From Thamnocephalis sphaerospora (Eukaryota; Zoopagomycota; Zoopagomycetes; Zoopagales; Sigmoideomycetaceae), in contig KZ992547.1 in NCBI GenBank assembly GCA_003614735.1, positions 1 through 32,581 on the forward strand: a DNA stretch of 32,581 nt, read 5' to 3'. The translations under genes and the position numbers were made by a program. Position 1 is the stretch's first letter. Each line of letters begins with the position of its first letter. The notes below the pieces were generated by a model, which worked only from the letters and a program-made list of their open reading frames with translations, was not told the DNA's origin and did not search any database. This document shows positions 1,680 to 32,581 of this stretch, in pieces.

Positions 1680-3638
1680 ATGCTGTTTCAAGCACGTGCC
1701 ATTGTAGCGCTACTTGCGGCTGCTGTCGGCTGTTTGCCGGTAGTTCACGCTTCGTTTACCGGCAGCAATAATGGCCGTTTGCCGGTCAATAACATCAACC
1801 AGCGGCCTCCAACGCTTTACGAAACGGATATTATGCGCGGGCCCATGCTAACACGGGCCAACTCGATGACCGCCGTCGAGAGCAGCAGTGCAGATCCGGC
1901 ATTGCCCAGGACGGTTATGGAGCGCTTTGTAAACGATGTACTCGGCTATTCAAAAGATACTTTTGTCATAGATCACGATTATTACTCGGAATCGCTGCAC
2001 AGCACGCATTTCTATCTCAAGCAAATCATTGATGGCATCCCGTTGGCCAACGGCGACACTAACGTCCATGTCACCGACAGCGGCCGGGTGCTCACCTTTT
2101 ACTGCAGCTTTGCCACGCCAAAGGCAAATGATCGGCACTGGCGCTTCGACAACAGCGCTGATTTTATCAGTGCACGTGAGGCGCTGGCCAAGTTTGCACA
2201 GTTTGCAAGTTTGGAAATAGGCGATGTCTCGCTGGTTCAGGAGACTGCCACAACACAGCCGAATGATCCGCTGGCGGTCTTTAAGCTGACTTCTGTTCCG
2301 TTTACCAACAGAAAAGTGAGCGCCAAGCGTGTTTACTTGCGTCTGAACGACGGAAGCATAGCGCCAGCTTGGTCGCTTCGTGTCAAACTTCCGCAGCATT
2401 ACTACCATGTTTATGTGGACGCAATGAACGGCGACATTCTCGAGGTGGTGAGCCGCATTTCGCACGCCACCTATCGCGCGCTGCCCATCGGCTACAGCAA
2501 CGCACACGAGGCGCCGCCGCAGCTGATTGCTAACCCGGAAGATGCCCTGGCCTCCCCACAAGGCTGGTTTGCGCCTATTCAAATGCAACACGGAGGGACT
2601 GTATACACCCTGGCGGGCAACAACGTAGTAACGTCTGCACAGCTCCAGCGCGGCAATCAAACCGTAGACTACAACCCAGTATTCAGTGCTAACCGGGGTT
2701 TTGTGCCTCAACTCAAACTCGACCGGCCAGCGGAAGAAAGCTTGGCGGGACTCATGCTCAGCGCCTCGACTACTCTGAATGCAATGCACGATCTCACCTA
2801 CCGCCATGGCTTCATCGAGGCTGCTGGTAACTTTCAGCAGGACAACTTTGGCCGCGGCGGTCTAGGAAATGACCCCATCGTGATCAATTTTCTAGAAGGC
2901 ATGCCGTATGCGCGTGCTGAGTTTGTCCACGCGCCGGATGGAGAGCGGCCGCAGCTGAACATTCGTTCGCCTAGTGGAATAAGTGCTCGCAATCACCTGG
3001 CGCTGAACAACGATGTTCTAGTGCACGAGTATATCCACGGTCTTGTCGGTCGGCTGGTGGGCGGTCCGCTCATCAATATCTGTATGGCATATCCCGAGAC
3101 AGCCGCCATAAGCGAGGGTGCTGGCGACTTTGTTGCCCTCTTGGTGAGAATGCGTGCAACCACCGTGCGTTCCGCGCGACTCTCGTTTGGAAGCCGCGAA
3201 CATGCCGGCTCCCTCCGCTCGTATCCGTACTCGGCCGATATGAGCGTCAATCCTACCCGCTATGATCTCCTAAACAACAAAGCCTGGCGCCATCCGCACA
3301 AGATGGGCGAAGTTTGGGCCTCTGTTCTGCTTGATATGTACTGGAATCTGGTTGACAAGCTTGGCTTTGACACCAATCTGTATTCGGCCAGAGTGGAGCG
3401 CGGCAACACGCTTGCGCTCAAGCTACTAATTGCATCGCTGCAGCTGATGCCTTGTAATGCGTCACTTACTCAAGCGCGTAACGCTCTTCTGGAGGCAGAA
3501 AGACAGCTGACACTTGGCGCGCATCAGTGCGAGCTTTGGAAGGCATTTGCAAAACGTGGTCTGGGAGTGGCGGCACGAGGAGGCGATGCCAATGTGGTCG
3601 CCGATGGTAGCGTGCCACAGGAGTGCATGCGTAAATAG
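1680..3638 (+). CDS. Secreted M36 metallopeptidase (fungalysin), intronless
   Basis: This 652-residue protein is an extracellular zinc endopeptidase of the fungalysin family, made as a preproenzyme. Residues 1-25 form a hydrophobic signal peptide ending VVHA. Residues about 90-230 match the FTP propeptide, including the YLKQIIDGIPLANGDTNVHV stretch. The catalytic domain carries the zinc motif HEYIH (H449, E450, H453) and the third ligand in SEGAGDF (E479). The family C-terminus follows, with MPCNASLTQARNALL and LWKAFAKRGLGV. Length and domain order are those of complete family members. The start is the first ATG and directly precedes the signal peptide. The gene has no intron, unlike the intron-dense MED12 beside it. 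An AATAAA lies 20 bases after the stop. It is convergent with MED12. Role in nutrition or host interaction is inference from the family. Confidence 0.97.
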   Translation: MLFQARAIVALLAAAVGCLPVVHASFTGSNNGRLPVNNINQRPPTLYETDIMRGPMLTRANSMTAVESSSADPALPRTVMERFVNDVLGYSKDTFVIDHDYYSESLHSTHFYLKQIIDGIPLANGDTNVHVTDSGRVLTFYCSFATPKANDRHWRFDNSADFISAREALAKFAQFASLEIGDVSLVQETATTQPNDPLAVFKLTSVPFTNRKVSAKRVYLRLNDGSIAPAWSLRVKLPQHYYHVYVDAMNGDILEVVSRISHATYRALPIGYSNAHEAPPQLIANPEDALASPQGWFAPIQMQHGGTVYTLAGNNVVTSAQLQRGNQTVDYNPVFSANRGFVPQLKLDRPAEESLAGLMLSASTTLNAMHDLTYRHGFIEAAGNFQQDNFGRGGLGNDPIVINFLEGMPYARAEFVHAPDGERPQLNIRSPSGISARNHLALNNDVLVHEYIHGLVGRLVGGPLINICMAYPETAAISEGAGDFVALLVRMRATTVRSARLSFGSREHAGSLRSYPYSADMSVNPTRYDLLNNKAWRHPHKMGEVWASVLLDMYWNLVDKLGFDTNLYSARVERGNTLALKLLIASLQLMPCNASLTQARNALLEAERQLTLGAHQCELWKAFAKRGLGVAARGGDANVVADGSVPQECMRK

Positions 3639-3657
3639 CCGAGCAATCGTCTGTCGG

Positions 3658-3663
3658 AATAAA
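3658..3663 (+). terminator. Probable polyadenylation signal of the fungalysin gene
   Basis: A canonical AATAAA starts 20 bases after the fungalysin stop codon, on the coding strand. It fits a cleavage site within the 239-base gap that separates this gene from the convergent MED12 stop. Confidence 0.55.
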
Positions 3664-3877
3664 ATTTGTGTAGTTTGGCAAACATCGCTAGCGGTTATTT
3701 GCCGATGGGTGGGCATTTGCCGATAAAGGCCATAATGTATTGAAAGCGAGGTGGCCGTAATGGCCCAAGACATGGTGGTACGCTAAAGCAGCCGTGAAAT
3801 GACAAGATATTAGAGCAAACAACAATAAGAAAAGGTCTGGAAGCCGTAAGTAGTGCAATAACAAGGGTGGTGCGCCG

Positions 3878-6800
3878 CTAAGCTCTGGGCTCTGCGTCCT
3901 CTGCTGGCCGCTTATGCCCAGATTTAAAAAGCGACGGCGTGCCAGCTGCGTGCTTTTGATCTACATCCATCTCCGAGAGCTCGCCTGGCTCTGGCGACAC
4001 GCGGCCGGCCAGATTCACAAAAGTTGATGTAGCTGTGCTCGAGTGCTTGACAGAAGGATACGACCAGCCGCGTGGTACCCGACCAGCGCGGACTGCACGT
4101 ATCAGCGGCGAATCGACTGTTTGCAGTCGGCGTGCTCGAAACAGCGCCAATGACAGCGGCGTATCGTTGCGTGTGTCTGGTTTGCCGCGCGATGTGGTAT
4201 TGCTGCTGGCGCCATTTCCACTTATGCCACTAACAGCTGCACCAGAGGTATTTGGTGTAAACGGTGCGGGCGTGGACACGCTCTGCACTGTCTTGGTGGC
4301 CGTTGTCGGTGTGTCCTCCAGCCAGCGCCACGGGTCCAGCAGAATACGTAGTTCCTGCCGCGTGGTCTCCTGATACCGGTAACGGACTTTGAAAGGCAGC
4401 ACACGGCGGATGCGCTCAGCATATGCAGCTGGCAAAACAAGCTGCGCTTCCATCATCTTTATGACGATCGTGATCGCGCAGGTCAGTCTACTGCTAGCAT
4501 GGTCGGTGGCGCCAATAAACGTTTCCTTACCCGCATTGCATCCAAGACACTCGTTCGTGTCTCCTTGGGCAGCTCTACAATACGCGTGGATACACATGCA
4601 TATAAGCTGGCGGGCAGATGAGGTATGCGGCGCATGCACCTACCATCGAGGAAGAATGAAAGAATATCCAAGACAAAGTCAAACAGACAGTTTGTCTGTT
4701 CCATGCCTGGATTTTGCTGTTGCGCGGTGGTAAACAGCGAGGAGCCTGTAGCGTTGCCGTACACTAGCGGATTCTGTATAAATGCCATGACACACGGTAG
4801 AATCATTAGTTGAGCTCGGCGCCTGCTAAGGGGTTGCGCGCCATATACTCACCGTAAGCAGTCGGAGAAGCGTGATGGCCCATTCGCCGGTAGCACATGC
4901 ATGCGGTTTATCCAGCAACCGCTTGAGCAGCGGAACAAGCAGTCGTAGCCGTAGTTCGAGACTGCCAATAGGATAATGCCGTGTTAGCAGGCTGCCATCT
5001 CTTTCTGCAAGCGCATGGTCGCTCTTTCCCAGCGTAGACTCACCAGCGGCGGAACTGATCTAGCGTCACGTTCGAGGCAAAGTGCTAAAGCACGGTACTA
5101 GGTCAGAATATGATGCTACACTGGCGGTTGCGCAAATGCCCACCTCATCACCGATCATTGGTACTGTGCCTTGACCTGCAAGTAGGTCCGGTAGCTGAGC
5201 ATCATCGCTTGCGTTTAGCCGGCGTATCGCCTCGCCGTAGGTGCATTCGTGGAACGCCATGGTGGCGAACACCTGAGCGATGATGTTGTAAGCACACGGG
5301 GTGTACATGCATGCTGAGCTGCTACTAACCTTTCTGTTTTCCTCAAAGCGTTTTGTTTGCGAAAGTAACGCTTGCGCAGCAGCAGCCTGTTTGCATGCTG
5401 TTTCCTCCGTAGCAGCATCCGACTTTGTTAGCAGCAGCGTCATGACCAGATGCATGCGACAAAGGGCCGTGGAAAAATCATTGTCCAGCGTGGCAAGCTC
5501 TGGGAAGAGGAGCACATTGCCGGGAAAACTCGGGTCTACCAGACCTTCCATAACACGCAGACCATGGGATACAAACTATGTGCACGTCAGTAAGTCAGTG
5601 ATCACGGAAAAATACGACGGTGGTTGCAGCTAACGACATCGACTTACCTCAGCGATAAGCGCCGTGGGGGCATCGCCAATGATGCTGGCCAGCAGGCGAA
5701 TGTCCGCTGCCGGCGTCAAGACCGTGCTATCAAACAGTGTGCGGGCCATTCGTTGCAGTGCATCGCTTGCCGCGCAGTCTGCTTGACCGGTCACGCCGTC
5801 GACGAGCATGTCGGTCTCGGAGGAGGCGGACGTTTCGTGGTGCGCAAGACCAGCCAGCGCAAGATGAACGATTGCGCGGCTGTTGTCCACATTCCATACC
5901 GACAGTCCAGTGAGCGCGCGTGAAAATGCAGCTAGACAACGATTGGCAAGACCTTCCGAGGCAATTTCCACGTCGTTGGACATTGCAGCTAGCAGTGTTG
6001 CAGAGTGATGAACAGGCGGGCAGTCATAGGAAAAGAGAGATCAGTATCACTCGTCGCACATGCCTTGCGTGCTCAGGGCTTACCTGCGAATGCCGTATCT
6101 AATACCAGCAAACCCGACTGAATGAGGAGTGCCACGGCAGCCGCGGTACGCTGCGAGTTGCTTGCAGTTGCCACCAGCATTTCTGCAAATCGCATTGGAT
6201 CGACCAGACACAAGCTGCGGAACCACGCTGCGTTCAACAGATGAAGTCGCAGCCACTGGCAGTGATGGCGCAACGCGTTGCTCAGCGGAAGTGTGGCCTC
6301 CAGCTGGACAAGTAGATCAAGCAGAGCCAAGATCGGCTTGACCTGCGCCATGGTCGAAACGACGGCCGTCATCCGCGCACTTAATGCCAGCGACTCGGCG
6401 GTGGAAAGCGTTGTTGCACCAATCGACTGCTGCAAAAGTATGGCAGCCAAAAGTTCCACAATGCAGCCTATCCGCTCATCGTTCATCGACTAGAATACCA
6501 ACGTAGTGAGCATACTGTGGACTAGCAAAGACGGTGTGTTGAGCGTCTACGTACTCGTTCTACGCCCTCGGCCAGTATTGGCAGGCATATGTGTTCCAGA
6601 ACGTACAATACATCGCAGCACCCTCGGGCAAGCAGCATAATGGTGAGCGCCAAGCGCCAGTGCCGGCACTCTGGCTGCGTCATCTCCGCTGCGCATAGGC
6701 GTGCGACAAGCCACTGGTTTACATCGCTGCGCATGCCAAATGACGTGCGTATAAGATTCTCCAAAAGGTTGGCGAATACGACTAGCTTGCGTCGTGCACT

Positions 6801-9800
6801 AGCTGCGTCGCCGAACGCTGCAATATGCTTGTCAAGTGACATATGAAGCAGCTCGAGCAGCCGAGGGAACCAGCCCGTCTCGGTGTGGTACTTTTCCCGG
6901 AGTGAGTTGGCAAGCATCGCCACGTGCTGTGCGTCCATCTCAAGAGGCTGGAAGCGCATGTCGCTCAATCGATCAGGCAGCTGAATGACGGTCGGTTGCC
7001 GTTGCGATGCGCCAAGGCTGCTCAGTGGCTAAACAGAGCAATGCTGGTTAATATTACGCAGCAACGATCTAGATGTCGTCCACTTTTCATACCTGAGCCG
7101 ATTTCGCCGTGTCGGAAAGCTGTGCAAGAATCGCATGTCAGCGTGGACCAGCCGTGGCCAATACCATGACCAGCATGCTTACCAGCGATTTTACACTCTC
7201 CATTGTACCATGGCCGTGCAGCACCAGCCGCTTGACACACTCAAAGATGGCAAAATCCAGCTGACCTTTGCTGGCAAAATACGCAAACTGTTGCACAATA
7301 GCGGTGCGTGTTAGCACTGTGATCTGTCAAATGATGCGCAAGTAGCTTGCCTTTTTTGCCACCGCGCCAAATACCGCCTGCTGCATGTCCAGTGCTGCCC
7401 AGCAGCGCTCGTAGCGAAGCAGAGTGTCCGTGCACAAGGCTGCAATGGCATGGTCGTTGGTGTGATCCATGACCCACATAGTAAGCTATGTCGCATATGC
7501 TCGTCAGCTGCGCAATGCAGTAGCGTATTCCGCACCGATAGATACCTCAATCAACGTATTGTAATCGCGCGCAAGCTCCATGACCCGAATGAGCGTGGCC
7601 ATTTGGCGCGCATTCAGCAAGGACGAGCCAGGGGACGTGATGACCCGCCAGTTATCCATGCCAATCCTGACCGTGGCTGTGATTAGAATGGGAGATCGCA
7701 CCTTCGACACCATCGTCGCTTAGCCACTTACTGCACCTCCTTGACGACAAACTGCTTCACCAGTCCCATGAGCCAGTTGGCCGTCACGCGAATCTGGCAA
7801 TATCGGTTGCTTGCTTGCAGCAGTCGCACTGTGTCCTCGTCCATCTCTAGCTGGAGCTCATAGTCCGCCACCGGATCGTCCACCAGCGGATCCGTCATGC
7901 TGGTAGTGCGAAAATTCGGTCGCGCGTGGACATTGACAAATGCCGGTGGTGTCGGTAGCGAGTTGCCAATTTGCGACAGATTGGACGCACCACCACCCGC
8001 CATACTGTTGCTGGTCAAATAGGGCAAGCGTGCCGCAAGCCGTGTCGTCAGCTGGCGAATCGTCTCTTCATCCGGATCCACCTGTATGCCATGCCATCAA
8101 TGTAAGCACGCTGCAGGCGACCGATCGCACAATATCGAGACAAGCGCACCATGTCGTTTACACCGTAAAGCTGGATGCGTCTTTGACGTGCTGCTACTGA
8201 ATGCGGGTCATAGACTGGTAGTGCACGCAAAATGTCTGCCTGCTTTTGTGCCGCCTAAGTCCGCGTAACGTGTCAGTACACGCGCACATCTATCGCCAGC
8301 AACAGAGATACGTGTCGCGGTACAGTTGACTTACCGGCGATGCGTCCGCAGCAACAGCAACATCGCACAGTGCGCCGCGTGCAATTAACCGTCGGAGATA
8401 TCGCGTGTAGGAGAAGACACGCGCTCGCATCAGCTGATCAAAGAGTAAGACTACTGTGTTTACATCTGTAACATGGCATGTCAAGCCAACAAAATTAGTC
8501 AGCTCTCGTACACACAGTTCGTTTGCGGCGCGTATGCTACTTGCCGCCTTCGCACTGATCCAAAAAGAGAAGCAGTGCCATCTGCACTTGCTCATCCCAG
8601 TCTTGGCTAGACATCTCAGATGCCTGCTTTAAGCGGCGGAGAAGTGTGGCGACAACGAAATACCGCTGCTCTTCGGCCTCACAGCCGGGAAGTGTGGCCC
8701 AATGGCACAGTCGTTGTACCCTAACCGCACAATCGCGGGCCTTGTTGACCGTGCACATGTCGATCCAGCGTGCATAAGCGTTGACGTTGGTGTGTGATCG
8801 AAGCAGCTGATTGAGCAGCTACGTTATTCGCCAGCGCGTGTGTTGGTTATCCAAGCATAATTTCGCGGCACCCTCGTCTAGACCTACCTCTACGTCCTCC
8901 TCGCTGGGTGCGCAGCCAATCTCTACCGTAAACGCCACATTTCTCTGCTGCACCGCCGCCATGTGGGCGCGCAGTTGCTTGCTGTCATGCCCACTTCGAG
9001 CGGGCACTCCCCGCTGCGCCGACGATGCCACCGATACGGCCATAATGCGCTTTAGCGTCTCGTGATGCCGATGCCAGGACCTTGGCTGTACAAAAGCATC
9101 CGGCCACCGCAGAGCCACCGTCTACAGCATGTGCATGGTAAAGTCAAACCTTTTAGCGGTTGCCCTATTCGGCGACATTACCCACCTGTAACACCGAGGC
9201 AATCTCCGTAACAACATAGCTAAAACGCCGTGACTTTGTTTCATCGGTGGTAGAACGAAACACCTGTAAACATACGTTCAGGATGACTCAGCATTATTGC
9301 GCTCAGCGTCAGCATAACATCTTGACCTACCGCATGCAACTTGTCCAAGAGCGCGTCAATAAGTAGTCTTGTAAGGGCGCGGGAGCGCGCAATGTCGTCT
9401 TGCAGTGCAGCCACGAGCGGCAGTAGCACCGCTGTCTGCTCCAGACCCGATGTAGCCAGACGATCCAGAACCCATTTCAAAAAGTGCCGCTGTTCCATCA
9501 GGCCATCGCTATGCAACCACTCGGCCAACCAGGTGCTATATTGTCCATTCTCCTTAGCATGCCAGTCTCACGCAGCATCACAGCGTGTTCAACTGCCCAC
9601 CTATACCACCAGCGGCCTGTCCAGCGTGTCCGCGATTCTTCATTCTGCCAAGGGCGAAATGCATTGCCAACAATGCGATTTGTCATAAAACCGACACCAG
9701 AAGTGCCAGATGCCCGTGGACCACCTGCAAGCTCGGCCAGTTGCATTTCCAGAAACTGTGCCATGTTGTTTTTCAACTCCAGCGCCAACGTAGACGAGGG

Positions 9801-11166
9801 TGCGGCAGCAGATTCCTAGTGACATTACCATAAGCAGCGGCACCAGCCAAGCTTGGCAACTTTGCTTACCATTTCAGCCATGGCAATCGCCTTAATGCTC
9901 CACACTGCACGTGCCAGTGGCGGCTGACGTGTAGCCAATTCGTCCAGTAGTTTTTCGCCGCGAAGTCTGTACGGCCAATAAAGCACGCCACCCTGTGATG
10001 AGCTGTTGCACGACTGACACCAGCGCCATCTAGAATGGCCTACCCAATGGGAATAGAGTGCGCTAGCGCATGCAGTGGCACCGTCGGATTGACCAAATCC
10101 TGCAGCCACTGCTCTTTTTTCAGATCCGACGTTTTGCACTTGACAGGTGGCTTCCAGCTTGAATCACTAGATCGACGCATACAGGCAGCATATATCGTAA
10201 GTAGGTGCCAGCAGAGCCTATTTGCGCATGCTGCTTACCGAGGCACACGCAGCGTACGCATCTGCCGCCGCATAACATCGGTCATGAACTCATCTAGCGT
10301 CGAAAGTGCTGCTGCGTCCCGCAACTGGTCATGGAGGAGATCGTGCGCCGACATACATTCATTCTGCACCACCACCATGGCGTCAGCATGGTGCATCACC
10401 GCATATAGGCACACACTGTCCAGCAGGCAGGTTGTTACCTCGATAGGTGCTCGTGCTTTGTAGCCGCGCTGCACCACATGCTGATTTAAGCGATCTTCCA
10501 GCTGGCCATCCTGGTGTGCATGATAGTCGGGATAGACTATTTGCCAATTGCCCGTTCAAGTCACCGCGGTATCGCTGGTATGTGCTATGCCCAGGCAATG
10601 ACTTACCCGTGGGATTATCGCAGTGCAGGCTAGGCAGTGAAGGAGGCGGCGCCAGCCGGTACTTGCTTAGAGGCTGATCGTGGCGCGACATGCGCCCTCC
10701 TCCGCCGGCCGGTGGCGAGGCCACACTGGCGCTAATCTGTGATGGAGACGGTGCGCCCGGATAGCGGCCAGCATGCGCCGAATGCCTAGCATGCGCGTGC
10801 GCACCCAGCGACGAAGCTTGCGCCGCAAATGCGCTTAGATGGGAGGCGGTCGAGGCGCCTGCGCCCGCATATCCATAGATTGGCACGTTGGGTCGAGTGT
10901 GCGTAAAGTGGCCCATGGCAACGCGCGACGCAAAGGCGCTAGAGGTGGAGAATAGGCCGCCTGCCGCGCCGGTCATGGACGGCGCGCCTACAGGACGGTG
11001 CGGGCCTGTCGGCGGCTGACCAGGCGGCTGACCCTGGCCGAATGAACCTAGGCGCATAAATCCATGAGCGTCTGCACCAGCACCGCCGATTGGCCATCAT
11101 GTACGCTGCCATCTCCCGCTAGCCGGCCGCAAAGCGTAGACACTTACCAGGTGGTCTGCCCGACAT
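3878..11166 (-). CDS. MED12: Mediator complex subunit 12 (CDK8 kinase module), about 26 exons
   Basis: About 1,869 residues. MED12 links Mediator to CDK8-cyclin C in the nucleus. Diagnostic blocks in order: YPDYHAHQDGQLEDRL (from about residue 163), WLQDLVNPTVPLHALAHSIPIG-type block (about 286-302), GEKLLDELAT...RAVW, GLMEQRHFLKWVLD, LCHWATL (about 615), FSYTRYLRRLIARGAL, RRIQLYG, and VELPKETR near the end. Phase-consistent exons, 5' to 3': 11166-11148, 11071-10607, 10536-10239, 10166-10044, 9966-9870, 9815-9601, 9535-9331, 9263-9186, 9121-8888, 8818-8556, 8536-8335, 8254-8150, 8081-7732, 7666-7546, 7485-7375, 7323-7183, 7119-7093, 7028-6555, 6489-6084, 5988-5648, 5575-5330, 5272-5144, 5059-4853, 4773-4644, 4574-4531, 4456-3878. 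The N-terminus is Gly/Pro/Ala-rich and looks disordered. Least certain points: the tiny first exon, the 8537-8555 gap, the donors at 5143 and 7374, and the AAG acceptor at 4457. The start at 11166 joins in phase; M11057 is the alternative. Confidence 0.93.
8537..8555 (-). other. 19-base apparent mini-intron (or frameshift) inside MED12
   Basis: The reading frame carrying ALLLFLDQ ends at a TAG. The frame carrying the next conserved block (FSYTRYLRRLIARGAL) is open directly afterwards. Removing 19 bases that begin GTGCG and end TAG restores phase exactly. The alternatives are a one-base sequence error, or a longer intron starting at the GTGCAG upstream, which would delete the conserved FLD segment. 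The donor is weak. Confidence 0.4.
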
Positions 11167-12199
11167 GGTTGCAGGTGTCTAGCGCACGTGTAAGTGGGTG
11201 TGAGTGTATGCGAGGAAGTCACCACGCCTGCTGGATGACGAAGTCGACGGTAAGTACGCGTGCACGCGAGCAAGGCGTCGTAGATGAATCGCAGCAGCAG
11301 TGCAAGCACCGCATAAAGCGGCGGCGTGGTAGAGCAGAGATTCAACAGGTAGACAGGGCGGATCGGTTGGTGGGGGAAGAGATCGAGGGGGCAGTTGACG
11401 TACGTGTGGTGGCGGCTGTGGCGGCGAGCAGCGTGTAGGCGGCACTTTGAGAGACGCGCACCCAAACAAGCGGCCGCGATGCCACGCCTACATGCACTAT
11501 AGGCGCAAAGGCCGACCAAGGCTATCATCGTCCGTGGCCACGATGGGTGGCGCCGCCATAGGCCATGGTAACAAACATAGGCACCGGAAGAGATCAGGGC
11601 CATCCTGCAGTGCTGGTGGGCTGTGACGGCTGGCGGCGAGGTGGTCCGCGCGCGAACATGCACGGCGGCCGTCTTCTATCGCCTGGTGTCCATGCAGCAG
11701 TGCTACGGCGGCGCTTGTTCTATCGCCCTATGGATGGCGTTGCTGGGCGCGCCAGGCTGCAGCGGGTGAGGGTCTACATGCGCGGTCTACGCTTCATGGC
11801 GGCCTTCACATGCGGCCTGATAAACCGGCACACCAGCGCTTGTTCCCCGTCCACAACCGTTAACCTGTCTTTCTCCACCTGCAGGCGCGCGCTCATTCTC
11901 GTCGTCGTCGCCACCTATCCACTCGCTTTCTCGCTCATTCTACCCTTGGCTCGGCCGTTCTTGCGGTCGGGCTGCCACGTTTCCCGCTTCGCTCGCGATT
12001 CACGTTCAGCGCGTAGCGTGTCGGGATCCATCCGCGCCCTCTGCTCGCGCAGATTGAATCACGCAGCGTCGACTGGTCGGCACCGCTGCCACGACTGCCC
12101 TGCTCACCGCTGGACGCCCACGCTAGGCAATACGCCGGGTAAAAGAGGCCAATACGCGTGTCTTGGCATTATCGCGTCAGCTACCCAACCACGCTGGCC
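11167..12199. promoter_or_regulatory. Shared upstream region of MED12 and SCAP
   Basis: This GC-rich 1 kb gap separates two divergent genes, so it should contain both promoters and 5' UTRs. On the plus strand there is a strong 3' splice site: GTTAACC followed by a pyrimidine tract and CTGCAG ending at 11884. Possible donors are GTGAGG at 11766 and GTAAGT at 11250. A 5' UTR intron of SCAP is therefore plausible. A 229-codon open frame crosses part of the gap but resembles nothing and overlaps the SCAP start in another frame. Confidence 0.45.
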
Positions 12200-15100
12200 A
12201 TGTCGCTACACACTCAAAACCGCACGGCTGGCGCCTACGGACCAACAGGTCTAGCTGCCGAGGCGGAGGCGCAAAACGCCAACCGTGCTGCTCACTTGGC
12301 GTCGCCGCCGCCGTCCTCGCTGTCGCCGTCCGTGTTGGTGGCGTCGAACCATGCGCCAGAGGGCAATGGTTGTGCACCTTCGCCACTCGCCCCCTCTTCG
12401 ACGACCGAACCGGGTAGCGCAAATACGCCCGCGCATCCGGTCCACGAGACAAAGCTATCGCGGCCAGCGTACACCAGACATCTGTTCTATCGTCTGGGGA
12501 AACATGCGGCCGCACACGCTCTCACCTATCTCCTTGCGTCGATCGTGGGCATGTTTCTGCTGACGTATCCGGCCTTGCACGCGCTGCTTGTGCAGCAGCG
12601 GCTCCAGCAGTTGGATCAAGGTCGTTTCTGGCAGGCACCAATGCTGCCTCGCACCGTAACAGACCAATTGCACGAACGCACGGGCTCTGATGGCGTACTA
12701 CATATCCAGCAGGTGTTTGTGCGACACGTGGATCGCAGTAGGAAAGCCGATGCGCTACGTGGTCCCATCTGGGCGCTAGCTCAGCAGCTGGTGCCAGCAC
12801 TCGAGCGCACGGTCGCCGGATCGGCCTCCGATGCCATGGAAGTGGTGGCCAAGACAGTAACGCTAGTGGCACGCGGCAAAGCAGATGCACCGGCGCTGTC
12901 TACGCAGCTGTTGCAAAACGACACAGTGGACAATAGTGGCTACTGTTTGGCGCCGGGGTCAGGCAGGCCGCGCTGCTTTGTCATGAGTCCGTGGACATCC
13001 TGGTCGACCATGGACACGCACGCATCGTCGCCAGCAGCGACGGTTGCGCCCTTTCTGCGAGCAGATGCACGGCGTGAATGGACACAACTGGTGCATCGGC
13101 TGAGTTGGCCGTCGACGGACGCACAACTTTCGACTGGCAGCATTTCCGGCGTGCTCTACGACTGGCGCCATGGCCGTGTACGTGGCGCTGACGCAGTGGT
13201 GCTCAGCTACTTTTGGCTGGGTTCCGCTGGTACACGCGAGTCCGCTTTACCAGAAACCACGGTGATCATGCCCGGCAGCGACGCAGTACCAGGTGTGCGC
13301 CGATTGACAGTACAGCTGGCCAACGAGCCGGCACAGCGCATGAACGTTCAAGTAGATCGCGGCCTATACGATATGCCCATTGCGTGGATCCCCATTATTC
13401 TGGCCCTGGTTATAGTATTCTTTAGTGCCTCTCACTCACTGGGCAGCGTGGAGCTGGTCAAGAGTCAGCATGGCATCGGGTTTGCAGCTGTGCTCACTGT
13501 TGTCTTTTCCATGACCATGTCTTATGGCGCCTCGGCTATTCTGGGCATTGTGTACGAGGCGGTGCCCGGGTAAGACGCAGTGTATTTTGTGTGACGCGGT
13601 ATAGCATACTGTAGCTAACCTGCCGAGACATCTTGTGCAGCCAAGAGATATACATCACGCTTCTGATGGCCGTATGCATCGAGAATATGTTTGTTGTCAC
13701 CAATGCCGTTGTATCAACTTCCATGGATCTGCCGGTGTCGGAACGCGTCGGACGGGGTGAGGCACGCCGTCGTCATGTTACCTGGCTGTGAAGCATTGGC
13801 TTACACGGATGCATCCAGGACTGCGTGCAGTTGCGGTTCCGCTTATGCTAGGTTTGCTACTTCAGCTCCTAATGCTACTCGGTGGCTACCTTCTAGGCGA
13901 TAGTGTACTAAGGGTGCGCTAACATGATGGACGGGCGTACTGCGACAGATCGCCAAACTAACGCTGAGGCGTACGTTTGTCGTTGCAGAAGTTTTGCATA
14001 CTAGGAATGTTTACAGTGTGCTTTAGCTTTGTACAGCAGCTTGTGTTCCTGGTGCCCATCCTCTGTATCGACATTCGCCGCCTGGAGCTCTCTGACCTGC
14101 ATGACCGACGGGTTGTGCATCAGATTCGCCGCTTTCCGCCCTCTCCGCATGCTAGCACCAATGGCCATTATATGCCAGCAGGGCATGCGCCGCATAATGG
14201 CGGAGGGGCGCACGCACGCGAAAGCGATCTGGGCGAGTCGCGCGTGCAAGTGTTTGGTATATCTGTTTTACAGCACCACACACTCAGTATCTTTTGCGTA
14301 AGTGGCTCATGCGGAAAGCTACGCACGGGTCGGCATTGGGTATTTATGCGCGTGTTGTCGCTTTGCAGGTGGCTGCTAGCATTGTTTGTGTAAGCATTTT
14401 CTACCCTGCTACGACAGCCCAGATGCCGGTTGTAGGTCAACGTAGTTACAGCTTTTGGCAGCAACCTATTGCTACCTATCTTCCCTGGCCTCTGCAAGCT
14501 CCGCCATCTCATGAGACAGCCTTTGATCTTCAGCTGGAACCGGCGGTCGCCGTGCTTGTCGAACTGGATACAACAAAGTATGACCAAACTCCCGGTCGTG
14601 AAAGCACCAATGCGTTGCCAGCGGGTGCCTCTTGGTATGCAACCTTTATGGATGGCTGGGGTCGTTCATCCAGCGAAGCGACCTTGGTCGATCAATCCAT
14701 GCACGTGGACAGAGACAGTGATGCTGACAAAGACGATGACGACGATGATGACGACGATGACGAGGATTACGGTGATCAGGATGAAGAAGACGGTGAGGAG
14801 GACAAGAGTACAGGTCGCTGGACACTGCCCTCGTTCTCCGGCGTGTCGTCAACTGCAATGATTGTCAAGCTGTCGCTGTGGCTGGTGGCAGCATGGTATA
14901 TACTGCAGACGACCCGTTTCCTACGCCAGCTCGCAGTGCGTCATCGTTGGCGCTGGTTATCCCAGTGGACGCAGCGAGGCCGACGACAGCAACACAGGCG
15001 ACGCCAAAGTCGCGATCATACCAACGCCGCTCGCGCCATTGGCTTACGGCGTAGCACTAGCTTGTCTCCGGTACGCATCGAGTGGCTGACTGGGCGCAGT

Positions 15101-27713: not shown

Positions 27714-29572
27714 TACGTGCTGTCAAGTGCGCGAATCTGAGCACGTATTTCCTGCAGCTTGGCCGTCAAATGTTCACACTCGTCAAGTATGCGTCTGCCT
27801 TCGTCGCACAGGCGCCTGCCTTCATCGCGCATTTGCATGCTTTCGGTAAACATGCGTTTGCCCTTGTCATACACACGACTGTCTTCGTCGCGCATTCGCA
27901 TGCTTTCGGTGAAAATATGCTCACCCTCTTCGCGCATGCGTTTGCTCTTGTCGCGCAAGTGCGCACCCTCAGTGCGCATACGTACGCCTTCTGGGAGCAA
28001 CAGCTTACGTTTGGCAGCTATACGCTTGTCCTCGGCAACCAAGTGCTTGCGCTCGGCAATTCGACGGTTACGGATCTCAATGCTCAAGCGCTCTACCCCT
28101 TGCTGGTGTTCCGATCGATGCATGCATCCAGTATAGTCGACTACGGTAATTGCATCATCATGGCCATAAACTATCGCAGCTGGCGATAATTCTTGACTAG
28201 CTTCCTCATGTATGTGCAAAGTAGGGTCGTCTCTCGGATTCCACCACATTGAATCGTCAATCATTTTTGCCCACTGATCGTCAGGCGGATAAAGACCGCT
28301 GCATATCCAGCAATTGAAATGTACCCGACGCACCTCTGAGCCATCGATTAAACTCAGCAGGAGCCATTTGTCGTATGTCTGCTGTATACTAAACAGATCA
28401 TGTGATGCGATCGATCGTATGTCCATGACTCGGATGCCGAGTGACCATTTCTCCTTTAGCAGCACACCTGATGCTTCATCAACCACCTCCACCAGTGATA
28501 TGGTAGGCGCTGATATAGGATCCAGGTCGTCCGTTTCTCTTGAATACAAAATGAATTTGCCGTCGTCGATGCGCTGCAATTTAATGTCGCCTTGCTTCAG
28601 GCTCATTGCCTTTCTTCCCGTCGCCTGACACTGCATCGGCTCTGCCCGATCGGGCGCAACCTGCCATAGCTTGTAGGCGATCGTAACAGGGCTGGATGTG
28701 CTTTTGTTATACTCTACGCAGACAATGCGCATGCGATCTGTTGTAGCGTTCAGGCTACAGCAGGTGTGGATATTTCCCTGAATATCAGAGTAGCAAGCAC
28801 CTCGAGCGAGGTCATACACAAATGCAGCGCCATATTGGCCCGTATCTGCAGAGTGTGCAATTCGGTGTGCGAGCCAGGACCCACGCAAACTGACATCAGG
28901 TATTTCTCGTTTGTCGGTGATAATGGTGCGTGGTGGCCTGTGAGGAGCGGCCGTATGCCATACACACAGGGAATAGCAGTCGACCAACATGTTCCAGGCT
29001 TGAATGACAAGGTATTCATCCGATTGCCGCTTGCTTAGCACTACTACATCCTCCGTGTCCATATCACCCCAGTATAATGGCTCTGAAAACCACGCTGATT
29101 GCCGCGGAGATGCTATTAGCCACTGTGATACCACCGCTACATCGCCTGCCGGGGAGTAGTCAAACGCGCATAGGATGCTTTGAAGGCGGACACCACGCGG
29201 ACGAACGTTGGCTGTGTTGGTGAGCCGATGTGCTGCGTACTTTCCGTGTCGCCAACGATATTCAACCGCACGACGCTCACAATAGGCGTCAAACCAGTCA
29301 AACTGAGCGCTGCCTTGCGGAAATAACAATATGCTGGTAGTATCGCCAAGATGTGTTGCAGCGCGCTTTGCTCGCATGTGCTGGTGCAGCCACTTTTGCT
29401 CGCTATCATTGCTTTGCAGGAATTGTCGCTCAAAGCGCTTGCGCCATGCCTCTTGCCGACAGGCCACCCGGCTGCGTAACCGTTTTGAAGCGCATGACAG
29501 CACCACAAGCGCAGCTTCATCGTTGCAAATCTCAACAATATGGTCCAGCACTTCGTCCGGTATACGCTTCAT
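27713..29572 (-). CDS. F-box protein with C-terminal heptad-repeat tail, intronless
   Basis: A 619-residue protein. Residues 1-40 match an F-box (MKRIPDEVLDHIVEIC, then ALVVLSCASKRLRSRV), the Skp1-binding module of SCF ubiquitin ligases. The middle 400 residues, rich in beta-type segments with scattered W and D, may form a propeller, but no clear WD repeat signature is present. The last ~110 residues are a regular 7-residue tandem repeat rich in Arg, Asp and Glu. The frame continues upstream only to a GTG, so the ATG at 29572, directly before the F-box, is the start. There are no introns. It is convergent with a diverged relative at 25850-27474, which shares the F-box and the following ERRAVEYRWRHG-type block, so the pair probably arose by duplication. 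The substrate is unknown. A long plus-strand frame over the tail is a by-product of the repeat. Confidence 0.76.
   Translation of the reverse strand: MKRIPDEVLDHIVEICNDEAALVVLSCASKRLRSRVACRQEAWRKRFERQFLQSNDSEQKWLHQHMRAKRAATHLGDTTSILLFPQGSAQFDWFDAYCERRAVEYRWRHGKYAAHRLTNTANVRPRGVRLQSILCAFDYSPAGDVAVVSQWLIASPRQSAWFSEPLYWGDMDTEDVVVLSKRQSDEYLVIQAWNMLVDCYSLCVWHTAAPHRPPRTIITDKREIPDVSLRGSWLAHRIAHSADTGQYGAAFVYDLARGACYSDIQGNIHTCCSLNATTDRMRIVCVEYNKSTSSPVTIAYKLWQVAPDRAEPMQCQATGRKAMSLKQGDIKLQRIDDGKFILYSRETDDLDPISAPTISLVEVVDEASGVLLKEKWSLGIRVMDIRSIASHDLFSIQQTYDKWLLLSLIDGSEVRRVHFNCWICSGLYPPDDQWAKMIDDSMWWNPRDDPTLHIHEEASQELSPAAIVYGHDDAITVVDYTGCMHRSEHQQGVERLSIEIRNRRIAERKHLVAEDKRIAAKRKLLLPEGVRMRTEGAHLRDKSKRMREEGEHIFTESMRMRDEDSRVYDKGKRMFTESMQMRDEGRRLCDEGRRILDECEHLTAKLQEIRAQIRALDST
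27770..28042 (-). repeat. 21-base tandem repeat encoding 13 heptads in the F-box tail
   Basis: Thirteen consecutive heptads begin with a hydrophobic residue (L, I, M or V) and have acidic or Gly residues at positions 4-5 and Arg/His/Lys at 6-7, for example MREEGEH, MRDEGRR, LCDEGRR. A 63-base higher-order unit is visible: IFTESMRMRDEDSR and MFTESMQMRDEGRR. Only one hydrophobic residue occurs per heptad. Confidence 0.85.
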
Positions 29573-30433: not shown

Positions 30434-31656
30434 ATGACTTCTGATAGTGCCGCAGTCAACGCGCTAGACTTGAGCCACTTTAGTCTGACGCGCGTGCTAA
30501 ACGAAGGTGGAAGGACTGTGCTGCGCGTGCATTCGCGGTAGACGCTCTGCTTATGTGTACTCGTACAATAGACACGCACAGTAAGACCGTATACCTCCTT
30601 GGCACATTGCCGTACTCGGCGAGCAATGGCGGCGAGACGCGCACCGAACCTGCGCTACTGATTGTCGAGAGGCTGCATTTTACCACAGCCGAGGCAAATC
30701 AGCTTGTAGCAAAGCGTTTGACCGAGACAGGCTCTACCGGACAAAATGACGTGTACCACTGGCTGCGTGGTCGTTTGCGCGGATACGCGAGCGACGCAGC
30801 CGACGACGAGTGGGACGTCAAGCTGACGGTTGTTGTGCCTGCCACAGAGGCGGTAAGGAAACGACTCAGGTGGGCGACTGTGGGCTACGAAGGATGCCAA
30901 CTATATAGCGCGCGTAGCACATTCGCAAGTACACGCGACAAGAGCGGCGCATGATACGCGAAACACCCGACATTTACCAGCGTGTGGTGCTACCGTATGT
31001 GGAGCATCTGCCGAAATCGCGCATTCACTGGCTTTACAACATCCTGGACGGTATTGGCGAACGGGAACATGTGCTGTTCAATGATCCCGACCCAGCGCAT
31101 GGGTTTATGCTGCTACCCGACAGGTAAGCGGTCAGGTGGCGAGTGCTGTATTTGCGAGATGCCAACATGGTTCGGCGCTACCTTAGCAAATGGGACAAGC
31201 GCACAATGGAAAGCCTGTACTTGCTTTGCTTGTGCCATGATCGCACCATCCGTTCGCTGCGTGATTTGCGTGCAAAACACCTGCCGCTGCTCACCAACAT
31301 ACGCCGCCAAGTGGGCCAAGTCACCAGCGCAAAATATGGCGTGCCGGCAAACCAGCTGCGGCTTTTCTTCCACTACCAGCCTTCCTATTGTACGTGACCT
31401 TTGTCACACATCACATCCGTTTGCCATGCTGATCATTTTGTTGTCGCCAGATCATCTCCACGTACACGTCACGCACATCCAGAACACGCAGCTGGGTGGC
31501 ATGACGGTTGGACAAGCGTATTTGCTGGATGATGTTATCGATATGCTTCAGTTGATGGATGATTATTTCCAAAAGTGCACGCTAACTTACGCGCTGGGTC
31601 AGGACCACCCATTGTACGCAGCGTTGGAAGAAGCCGGTGCCACTGCAGACCCATAA
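30434..31656 (+). CDS. DCPS: Scavenger mRNA-decapping enzyme DcpS (HIT family), 5 exons
   Basis: A 328-residue protein that hydrolyses the m7GpppN cap left after 3'-5' mRNA decay. Exons are 30434-30506, 30542-30852, 30930-31123, 31187-31389 and 31451-31656. Introns are 35, 77, 63 and 61 bases, all in phase. The N-terminal domain (FSLTRVLNE, PALLIVERLHF) is followed by RETPDIYQRVVLPYVEHL and HWLYNILDG (W162, the likely cap-stacking tryptophan), NDPDPAHGFMLLPD, KW (K194, matching the substrate-contact lysine), IRSLRDLRAKHLPLL, and the histidine triad YHLHVHVTH. H264 is the predicted nucleophile, with H262 and H266. All key residues are present and the length matches the family, so the enzyme should be active. 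The first intron is very short. The fourth intron, inside the codon just before the HIT motif, is partly duplicated in inverted orientation at the right end of the window. Confidence 0.96.
31385..31432 (+). repeat. Left arm of 48-base perfect inverted repeat (exon-intron junction of DCPS intron 4)
   Basis: This begins with the last five exon bases (CTATT), covers the donor GTACGTGACC and runs 43 bases into the intron. It is identical over 48 bases to the reverse complement of 32534-32581. One extra T and then a further 7 matching bases (CATTTTG) follow. Confidence 0.95.
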
Positions 31657-31819
31657 CGTGCCAATGGTCGATTAAATGGCGGACGCGACACAGCGGCCAT
31701 TTGACGTTGCAGCAATAATCGAATTTACGTTGTGTATATGTGCGCGTGCAGTAGCGTGTCCGTCCAGCAATACGCCATACGCAGCCGACTCTGGCGCGGA
31801 CGCCAGTCAAATGGCCAAA

Positions 31820-32581
31820 CTAGTGCATCCGGTCCATCTGGTGGCCATGCTCCATCATCTCCGTGTCGCGCGTGTCCGATGTTAGTACCGAAATCAGATG
31901 CGAAATGCCGCGTTGCTGTTCCTCCAGCGCACGCTGCATTCGTGAAAGACGCGTGGCATCCGTCACGCTCCATGCCTGACCGCCTTCCAGCTTCCGCCGC
32001 TCAGCCACGCGCTCCAAAAGCACGGCCAGCTCCTGCAGTCGCGATCGAAACTGGCCCGGCCGCATAAGCCGCTGCTGCAGCTCCTCTAAGCGCGACCGCA
32101 GTGCTTCCTCCTCAGGCCGTAGCGAACGACCGTGCGACCGCAGCAGATGAATGCTGCGCATCAGCTATTTGGTCGGCAATCACGTTGATGTTAGCATTAC
32201 CGCGGCATTGTCATCGTGATTTTTGTCGCGTAGCCACTTACGTCTAGGACACGCTGCATCAGCGCCAGCTGGCAACGCCGGGACTCGGCCAGGCGAGCTG
32301 CGTTGTGCAAGTCATGTGCTTGGCGCAGCTTGTTCAGACGCTCTCGAAGTTCCTAGCAGCAGTCATGGCGATAGTGTAAGCGCAGATCTTGACCGAATCG
32401 GTATGTCACTTACTGCCAATGTGCTATCGTGCGCGCCAGTCTGCAAACGCTGCTGCTCTACGCGCTTCTCCAAATCGCCAAATCCAACTGCAAGCACCGG
32501 TACCAGACTGTGTGCGATTAGAGCGGCAAAATGTCAGCATGGCAAACGGATGTGATGTGTGACAAAGGTCACGTACAATAG
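31820..32581 (-). CDS. NUP54: Nucleoporin Nup54/Nup57, C-terminal part, cut by the window edge
   Basis: This is a component of the Nup62 channel complex of the nuclear pore. Exons, in minus order: 32507-32414, 32352-32242 and 32164-31820; the 61- and 77-base introns between them are in phase. The sequence runs LVPVLAVGFGDLEKRV (matching the VPV..VGF.DL..R entry to the alpha/beta region). It continues with coiled-coil segments (ELRERLNKLRQAH, SRRCQLALMQRVLDL), then LRPEEEALRSRLEELQQRL and QFRSRLQEL, which are highly characteristic of Nup54 C-termini. The FG-repeat N-terminus lies outside. Upstream of 32507 there is an acceptor-like CACACAG and then sequence inverted from the DCPS gene. The apparent donor at 32576 and the five exon bases beyond it may therefore not belong to NUP54. 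It is convergent with DCPS, 163 bases apart. Confidence 0.92.
32534..32581 (-). repeat. Right arm of 48-base perfect inverted repeat, reaching the last base of the window
   Basis: Read on the minus strand it begins CTATT|GTACGTGACC and ends GCTGA, base for base as 31385-31432. The match includes the final base of the window, so its full length cannot be seen. It would serve as the donor half of a 69-base NUP54 intron (32508-32576). Confidence 0.95.

Follow-up and report, generated by a model that had tools for sequence, protein, structure and literature searches.

An inverted 48-nt copy from a DCPS intron at a contig end of Thamnocephalis sphaerospora is very probably a chimera of multiple displacement amplification

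In this study of one whole contig of Thamnocephalis sphaerospora (C124, 32,581 nt; hereafter the window), the second copy of a DCPS donor half, found inside a NUP54 intron at the contig end, was assigned to an inverted template-switch chimera of multiple displacement amplification (MDA) and not to a real genomic feature, with a probability of about 0.93. The preliminary description had left such a chimera and an introner-like mobile intron side by side. The chimera is now favoured by the MDA of sorted cells given in the methods of PMC6784888, by the position at a true contig end, by a length below the k-mer size, and by the inverted arrangement of two arms lying 1.1 kb apart; contig C593 of this assembly gives further backing, since it too has a terminal duplication shorter than the k-mer.

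An inverted-repeat search of the window found 31385-31432 and 32534-32581 to be reverse complements over 48/48 nt (100%), with 1101 nt between the arms. DNA searches of the assembly gave a wider match between 31385-31440 and 32527-32581, with 55/56 positions aligned and one gap. Beyond the 48 exact nucleotides the DCPS copy has one extra T, after which 7 nt more are matching (CATTTTG in gene sense). From the base composition, about 1e-20 exact inverted pairs of 48 nt are expected in the window. GTACGT begins five bases into the copied block and CTGA lies at its inner end. Both searches bore out the match as it had been described, with the odd T and the seven further bases, and the limits given for the block, five exon bases before GTACGT and around CTGA, were confirmed as well. 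The second copy ends with base 32581, the last base of the contig. The features are collected in Table 1.

Table 1. Features of the DCPS and NUP54 region at the right end of the window.
Feature	Position	Strand	Basis or remark
Authentic DCPS intron, 61 nt, phase 1, GTACGT donor to CAG acceptor	31390..31450	+	Deposited protein, spliced reading
Source copy	31385..31432	+	Five terminal bases of the preceding DCPS exon plus the first 43 of the 61-nt DCPS intron; authentic
NUP54 3' exons and introns down to the stop codon	31820..32507	-	PF13874, PDB Nup54 chains, end of deposited protein
3' portion of the genuine NUP54 intron, through acceptor CACACAG	32508..32533	-	Sequence; start of deposited model
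CATTTTG in gene sense, resembling the DCPS intron over 7 nt	32527..32533	-	Next to the join, one base out of step
Inverted second copy of the source (31385-31432)	32534..32581	-	Runs to the last base of the contig; interpreted as the tail of a chimeric molecule

The DCPS gene was recognised by the DcpS_C profile (E 2.2e-25), and its protein is deposited as 'scavenger mRNA decapping enzyme [Thamnocephalis sphaerospora]' (P0001). The DCPS intron is firmly established, because the deposited protein reads PSYYHLH across it; the longer reading is ...FHYQPSYYHLHVHV... The NUP54 gene was identified with PF13874 (E 1.2e-28, profile positions 23-137 of 140) and also by matches to PDB Nup54 chains. Its deposited protein (P0121) is partial, and the first residues (LVPV) come directly past the acceptor CAG at 32508. 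The donor of the composite NUP54 intron would read CTATT|GTACGTGACC, and the exon upstream of it is absent from the deposited NUP54 model, only five bases of such an exon being present in the contig. The NUP54 intron is thus supported in its 3' part only, its donor half being copied DCPS sequence, and its true 5' part is taken to be absent from the contig. The earlier statement that each intron has its own 3' part therefore stands for the DCPS intron, through the deposited protein, while for the NUP54 intron it is this 3' part alone that is supported. When LF, the residues from the copied exon bases, was placed before LVPV, 1/7 PDB matches (9hcj_H0) aligned from F and the remaining six from L or V after it. 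The difference is one residue, and the 9hcj_H0 alignment speaks weakly here and does not count against a real upstream exon.

The N-terminal part of NUP54 lies beyond the contig end, and profile and DNA searches of the contigs of at least 10 kb did not find it on another contig. PF13874 matched this contig alone, in three pieces. The FG-repeat family PF13634 matched C200, C247 and C177 among the contigs of at least 10 kb, and the one of these that was read, C247, has its match about 440 nt from the right end and pointing there; positions 20600-22093 of C247 hold an FG-repeat nucleoporin gene running towards that end. The checks made on this gene did not identify it as NUP54: Pfam gave FG repeats only for its protein, the 52-residue tail had no nucleoporin match among PDB chains, and the last 250 nt of C247 and of C124 (gene sense) have no common run of 10 nt or more. 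With a plain NUP54 query four proteins came back; one was the partial protein of this species and the other three were C-terminal. A padded query gave no longer relatives at E 0.01.

According to the methods of PMC6784888, T. sphaerospora cells were sorted and their DNA was amplified by MDA using a REPLI-g kit or in-house phi29, so that amplification by phi29 is documented for the source DNA. The same methods state that libraries were assembled with SPAdes in 'careful' and 'single-cell' modes with k-mers of 21, 33 or 55, a list that refers to single libraries, and that the co-assembly was made 'again with SPAdes'. These methods presumably apply to the present contig. The searched assembly comprised 14.46 Mb in 594 contigs of at least 10 kb each (C594, the last by number, has 10,047 nt).

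The arrangement resembles published phi29 chimeras. Among the MDA chimeras described in PMC1855051 (Lasken and Stockwell 2007), 406/475 were inverted; 337 of these 406 joined sites less than 10 kb apart, and complementarity was present in 93.5% of the latter. In the samples reported by PMC6515389, inverted chimeras made up 91.36% of single-end chimeras (mean of two samples), and the data given in PMC4595205 place the peak of chimera overlaps at 6 nt and that of the distances, which run from 0 to more than 5,000 nt, at 250-300. The present join is likewise inverted, with its arms well within 10 kb, and belongs to an MDA-made genome; it may also share the short complementarity, 7 nt of similarity lying beside it. 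It differs from the chimeras described in these sources in being known from a finished assembly rather than from reads, and in that its 7-nt similarity is offset by one base.

The chimera could have arisen as follows. A nascent strand would have been copied rightwards through the NUP54 3' exons as far as the branch-site region of the NUP54 intron (about 32533). There it would have become detached and started again on single-stranded DNA close by, of opposite polarity, where the DCPS intron has a similar region 1.1 kb off; from this point the DCPS intron would have been copied backwards, through the donor into the exon. Reads of the chimeric molecule would have taken the assembly 48 nt beyond the join, where the contig stops because, at k = 55, an overlap of 48 nt would not suffice to join it to the DCPS copy. 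The strand switch is inferred, and so is the stop through want of k-mer overlap. An assembly at k = 55 should read through any repeat of less than 55 nt, and the 48-nt copy was therefore not considered to have caused the break; we take it for a tail that was assembled before the break, and a chimeric read tail can end a contig. Each join point falls in an intron, and the genes point towards one another. Joining such introns in inverted fashion would give the DCPS donor half followed by the NUP54 acceptor half, hence the impression of a shared donor half. That both join points fall in introns is a coincidence that counts against the chimera reading. A spliced DCPS-NUP54 product would be out of frame and would meet a stop after 16 further codons.

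CAAAATG had been put forward as a 7-base microhomology at the junction. It is indeed present on both sides of the join, but one base out of register, so that the similarity is 7 nt with this offset and 0 nt in exact register; 75/200,000 random joins reached at least 7 nt within one base of offset. The overlap used at the join may instead, or in addition, have been the branch-like TGCTGA. On one reading of the odd base, the native NUP54 branch site was TGCTGAC, that of DCPS is TGCTGAT, and the switch took place at the common TGCTGA. The 'careful' mode of SPAdes performs indel correction, and such a correction, or a slip, is another possible source of the odd base. Around 374 donor-like hexamers, GCTGAC occurred 19 times downstream and 6 times upstream, GCTTAC 17 and 5 times, and GCTAAC 17 and 6 times. 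These counts hint at GCTNAC as a branch motif in this genome; the support is weak because the three rank only 5th, 6th and 22nd among hexamers and the 374 candidate donors are unverified. The last 55 nt of the contig match DCPS with a single gap, and 55 is also the k-mer size, which may be coincidence or may reflect an edited graph vertex. The gap is not fully explained in this way, because an unedited vertex should match exactly.

Other contig ends bear the marks of the same assembler. The last 55 nt of the right end of C10 are exactly common to the interior of C21, and the right end of C210 has exactly 55 nt in common with the right end of C11; this 55-nt sharing is the fingerprint of a k = 55 graph. 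The window's end resembles a chimeric or branching end of a SPAdes k = 55 contig in that its foreign stretch of 48 nt is shorter than k while two other ends share 55 nt, and it differs from a plain end of this kind in that its last 55 nt depart from their source by one gap. The left end of C593 has an anatomy similar to that of the window's end, since its first 40 nt are an exact direct duplicate of its own positions 2301-2340, another terminal duplication below 55 nt. Exact local repeats of at least 20 nt were present at 3/46 contig ends for which the local view spanned 2 kb or more (C593, C405 and the window), and all three, of which that of C405 is longer, begin at the terminal base. With the window set aside, such repeats occurred at 2/44 ends and in 2/456 interior segments, the interior ones both being of CAG type. 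The 44 other ends that were compared with their local sequence gave no further inverted sub-k-mer repeat. In 282,581 nt (45 stretches, nearly all contig ends), 10 repeat pairs of 35-150 nt were detected, and the four at 95% identity or more (C410/C139, C593, C405 and the window) each have one copy at a contig terminus. The enrichment at ends proves little alone, because real repeats also break assemblies and those of C405 and C410 look like such cases; the sub-k-mer lengths of 40 and 48 nt are what is telling.

The assembly-wide end check covered 65 of the 86 ends besides the window's, one of them with 77/90 bases; 21 were left out, one of which contained N, and 20 further left ends were compared only with locally retrieved sequence. 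All 65 ends matched themselves. One search scored 40/69 candidates and missed the known second copy of C593, and short second copies are therefore under-counted in this check.

Several further overlaps and repeats were observed in the assembly. C594 is apparently contained wholly within C450 at 3518-13564, both of its ends matching at 100% and at the right distance, and the assembly thus seems to hold redundant contigs. C210 and C423 have at least 250 nt in common, the last 250 nt of C500 also occur in C425, and the last 90 nt of C408 in C532. The two ends of C100 (35.7 kb) are mutual inverted repeats of 516 nt at 99% identity. Dispersed repeat families occupy both ends of C410: the right end has matches on 13 other contigs at 86-94% and the left end on 15 other contigs at 90-100%, and several of these matches lie near contig ends. 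The first 90 nt of C405 recur on the same contig at 9899 (99%) and 12216 (98%), which looks like a real local repeat. In the window itself, 27780-27989 hold an array with 21-nt spacing and six copies of a 63-nt unit, of which five are 60-76% identical to the reference copy; it is perhaps a repeat in coding sequence.

An introner-like element, that is a recent intron gain in which the DCPS intron was copied whole or in part into NUP54, would account for the 48-nt donor half exactly common to two introns, with 7 nt more past one gap, and for a composite intron furnished with donor, branch-like motif and acceptor. Near-identical sequence in two introns of different genes is also what introners show in PMC9860276. 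The preliminary description had offered this explanation, and the assembly search spoke against it: in the contigs of at least 10 kb (14.46 Mb) the sequence was found in two places, and no third copy was returned by DNA searches that used 76 nt spanning the DCPS intron and the terminal 81 nt of the contig as queries, or by a 24-nt donor-side pattern with up to 3 mismatches. The survey described in PMC9860276 retained introner families only with at least four introns, and no family of at least four similar introns was found in the contigs searched; in contrast to those introners there are one authentic copy and one truncated half. Splice sites do not bound the copy, which carries five exon bases, stops in mid-intron and reaches the contig end. 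An introner is accordingly extremely improbable. Slightly less so, and still highly improbable, is a real and very recent transfer, in which the 5' half of the DCPS intron with its five exon bases entered the NUP54 intron through inverted template switching in the living fungus and made a composite intron with halves from different genes. A search for literature on introns in Thamnocephalis found none.

Among the alternatives, a real inverted duplication or 1.1-kb inversion (31433-32533), present in one haplotype or cell and joining DCPS to NUP54, is the least improbable, though itself very unlikely. The join is shaped like an inversion breakpoint, and PMC6784888 gives 4/6 basal fungi and 3/4 Zoopagomycota as not haploid, in counts for groups that are not specific to T. 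sphaerospora. Such a variant would break both genes, leaving DCPS without its HIT-motif exon and NUP54 out of frame; if real, it should assemble for more than 48 nt, since at k = 55 a repeat of this length should be no obstacle to the assembler. Joins of this kind are, moreover, routine in MDA according to the data in PMC1855051. A simple inversion in place of a fold-back would give the same join, but the contig has a normal DCPS gene together with the inverted piece, and a chimeric tail accounts better for an end reached within 48 nt. A pure SPAdes misjoin, formed with no chimeric molecule when an edge ended at a DCPS intron vertex and indel correction changed one base, would fit the alignment of the last 55 nt to DCPS at 55/56, the k-mer size of 55 and the two other ends that share exactly 55 nt. 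A graph edge from NUP54 to DCPS, however, needs reads spanning the join and hence a chimeric molecule anyway, and the match of the last 55 nt to DCPS is inexact, which leaves the misjoin as the least credible explanation of all.

In conclusion, the MDA chimera is the preferred reading of the second copy. A real copy would instead represent the transfer of half an intron, so recent as to be caught in the act. Single-cell (MDA) assemblies can keep chimeric tails at contig ends that resemble shared or mobile introns, and scans for intron gain in MDA genomes should discard about the last k-mer length of every contig.
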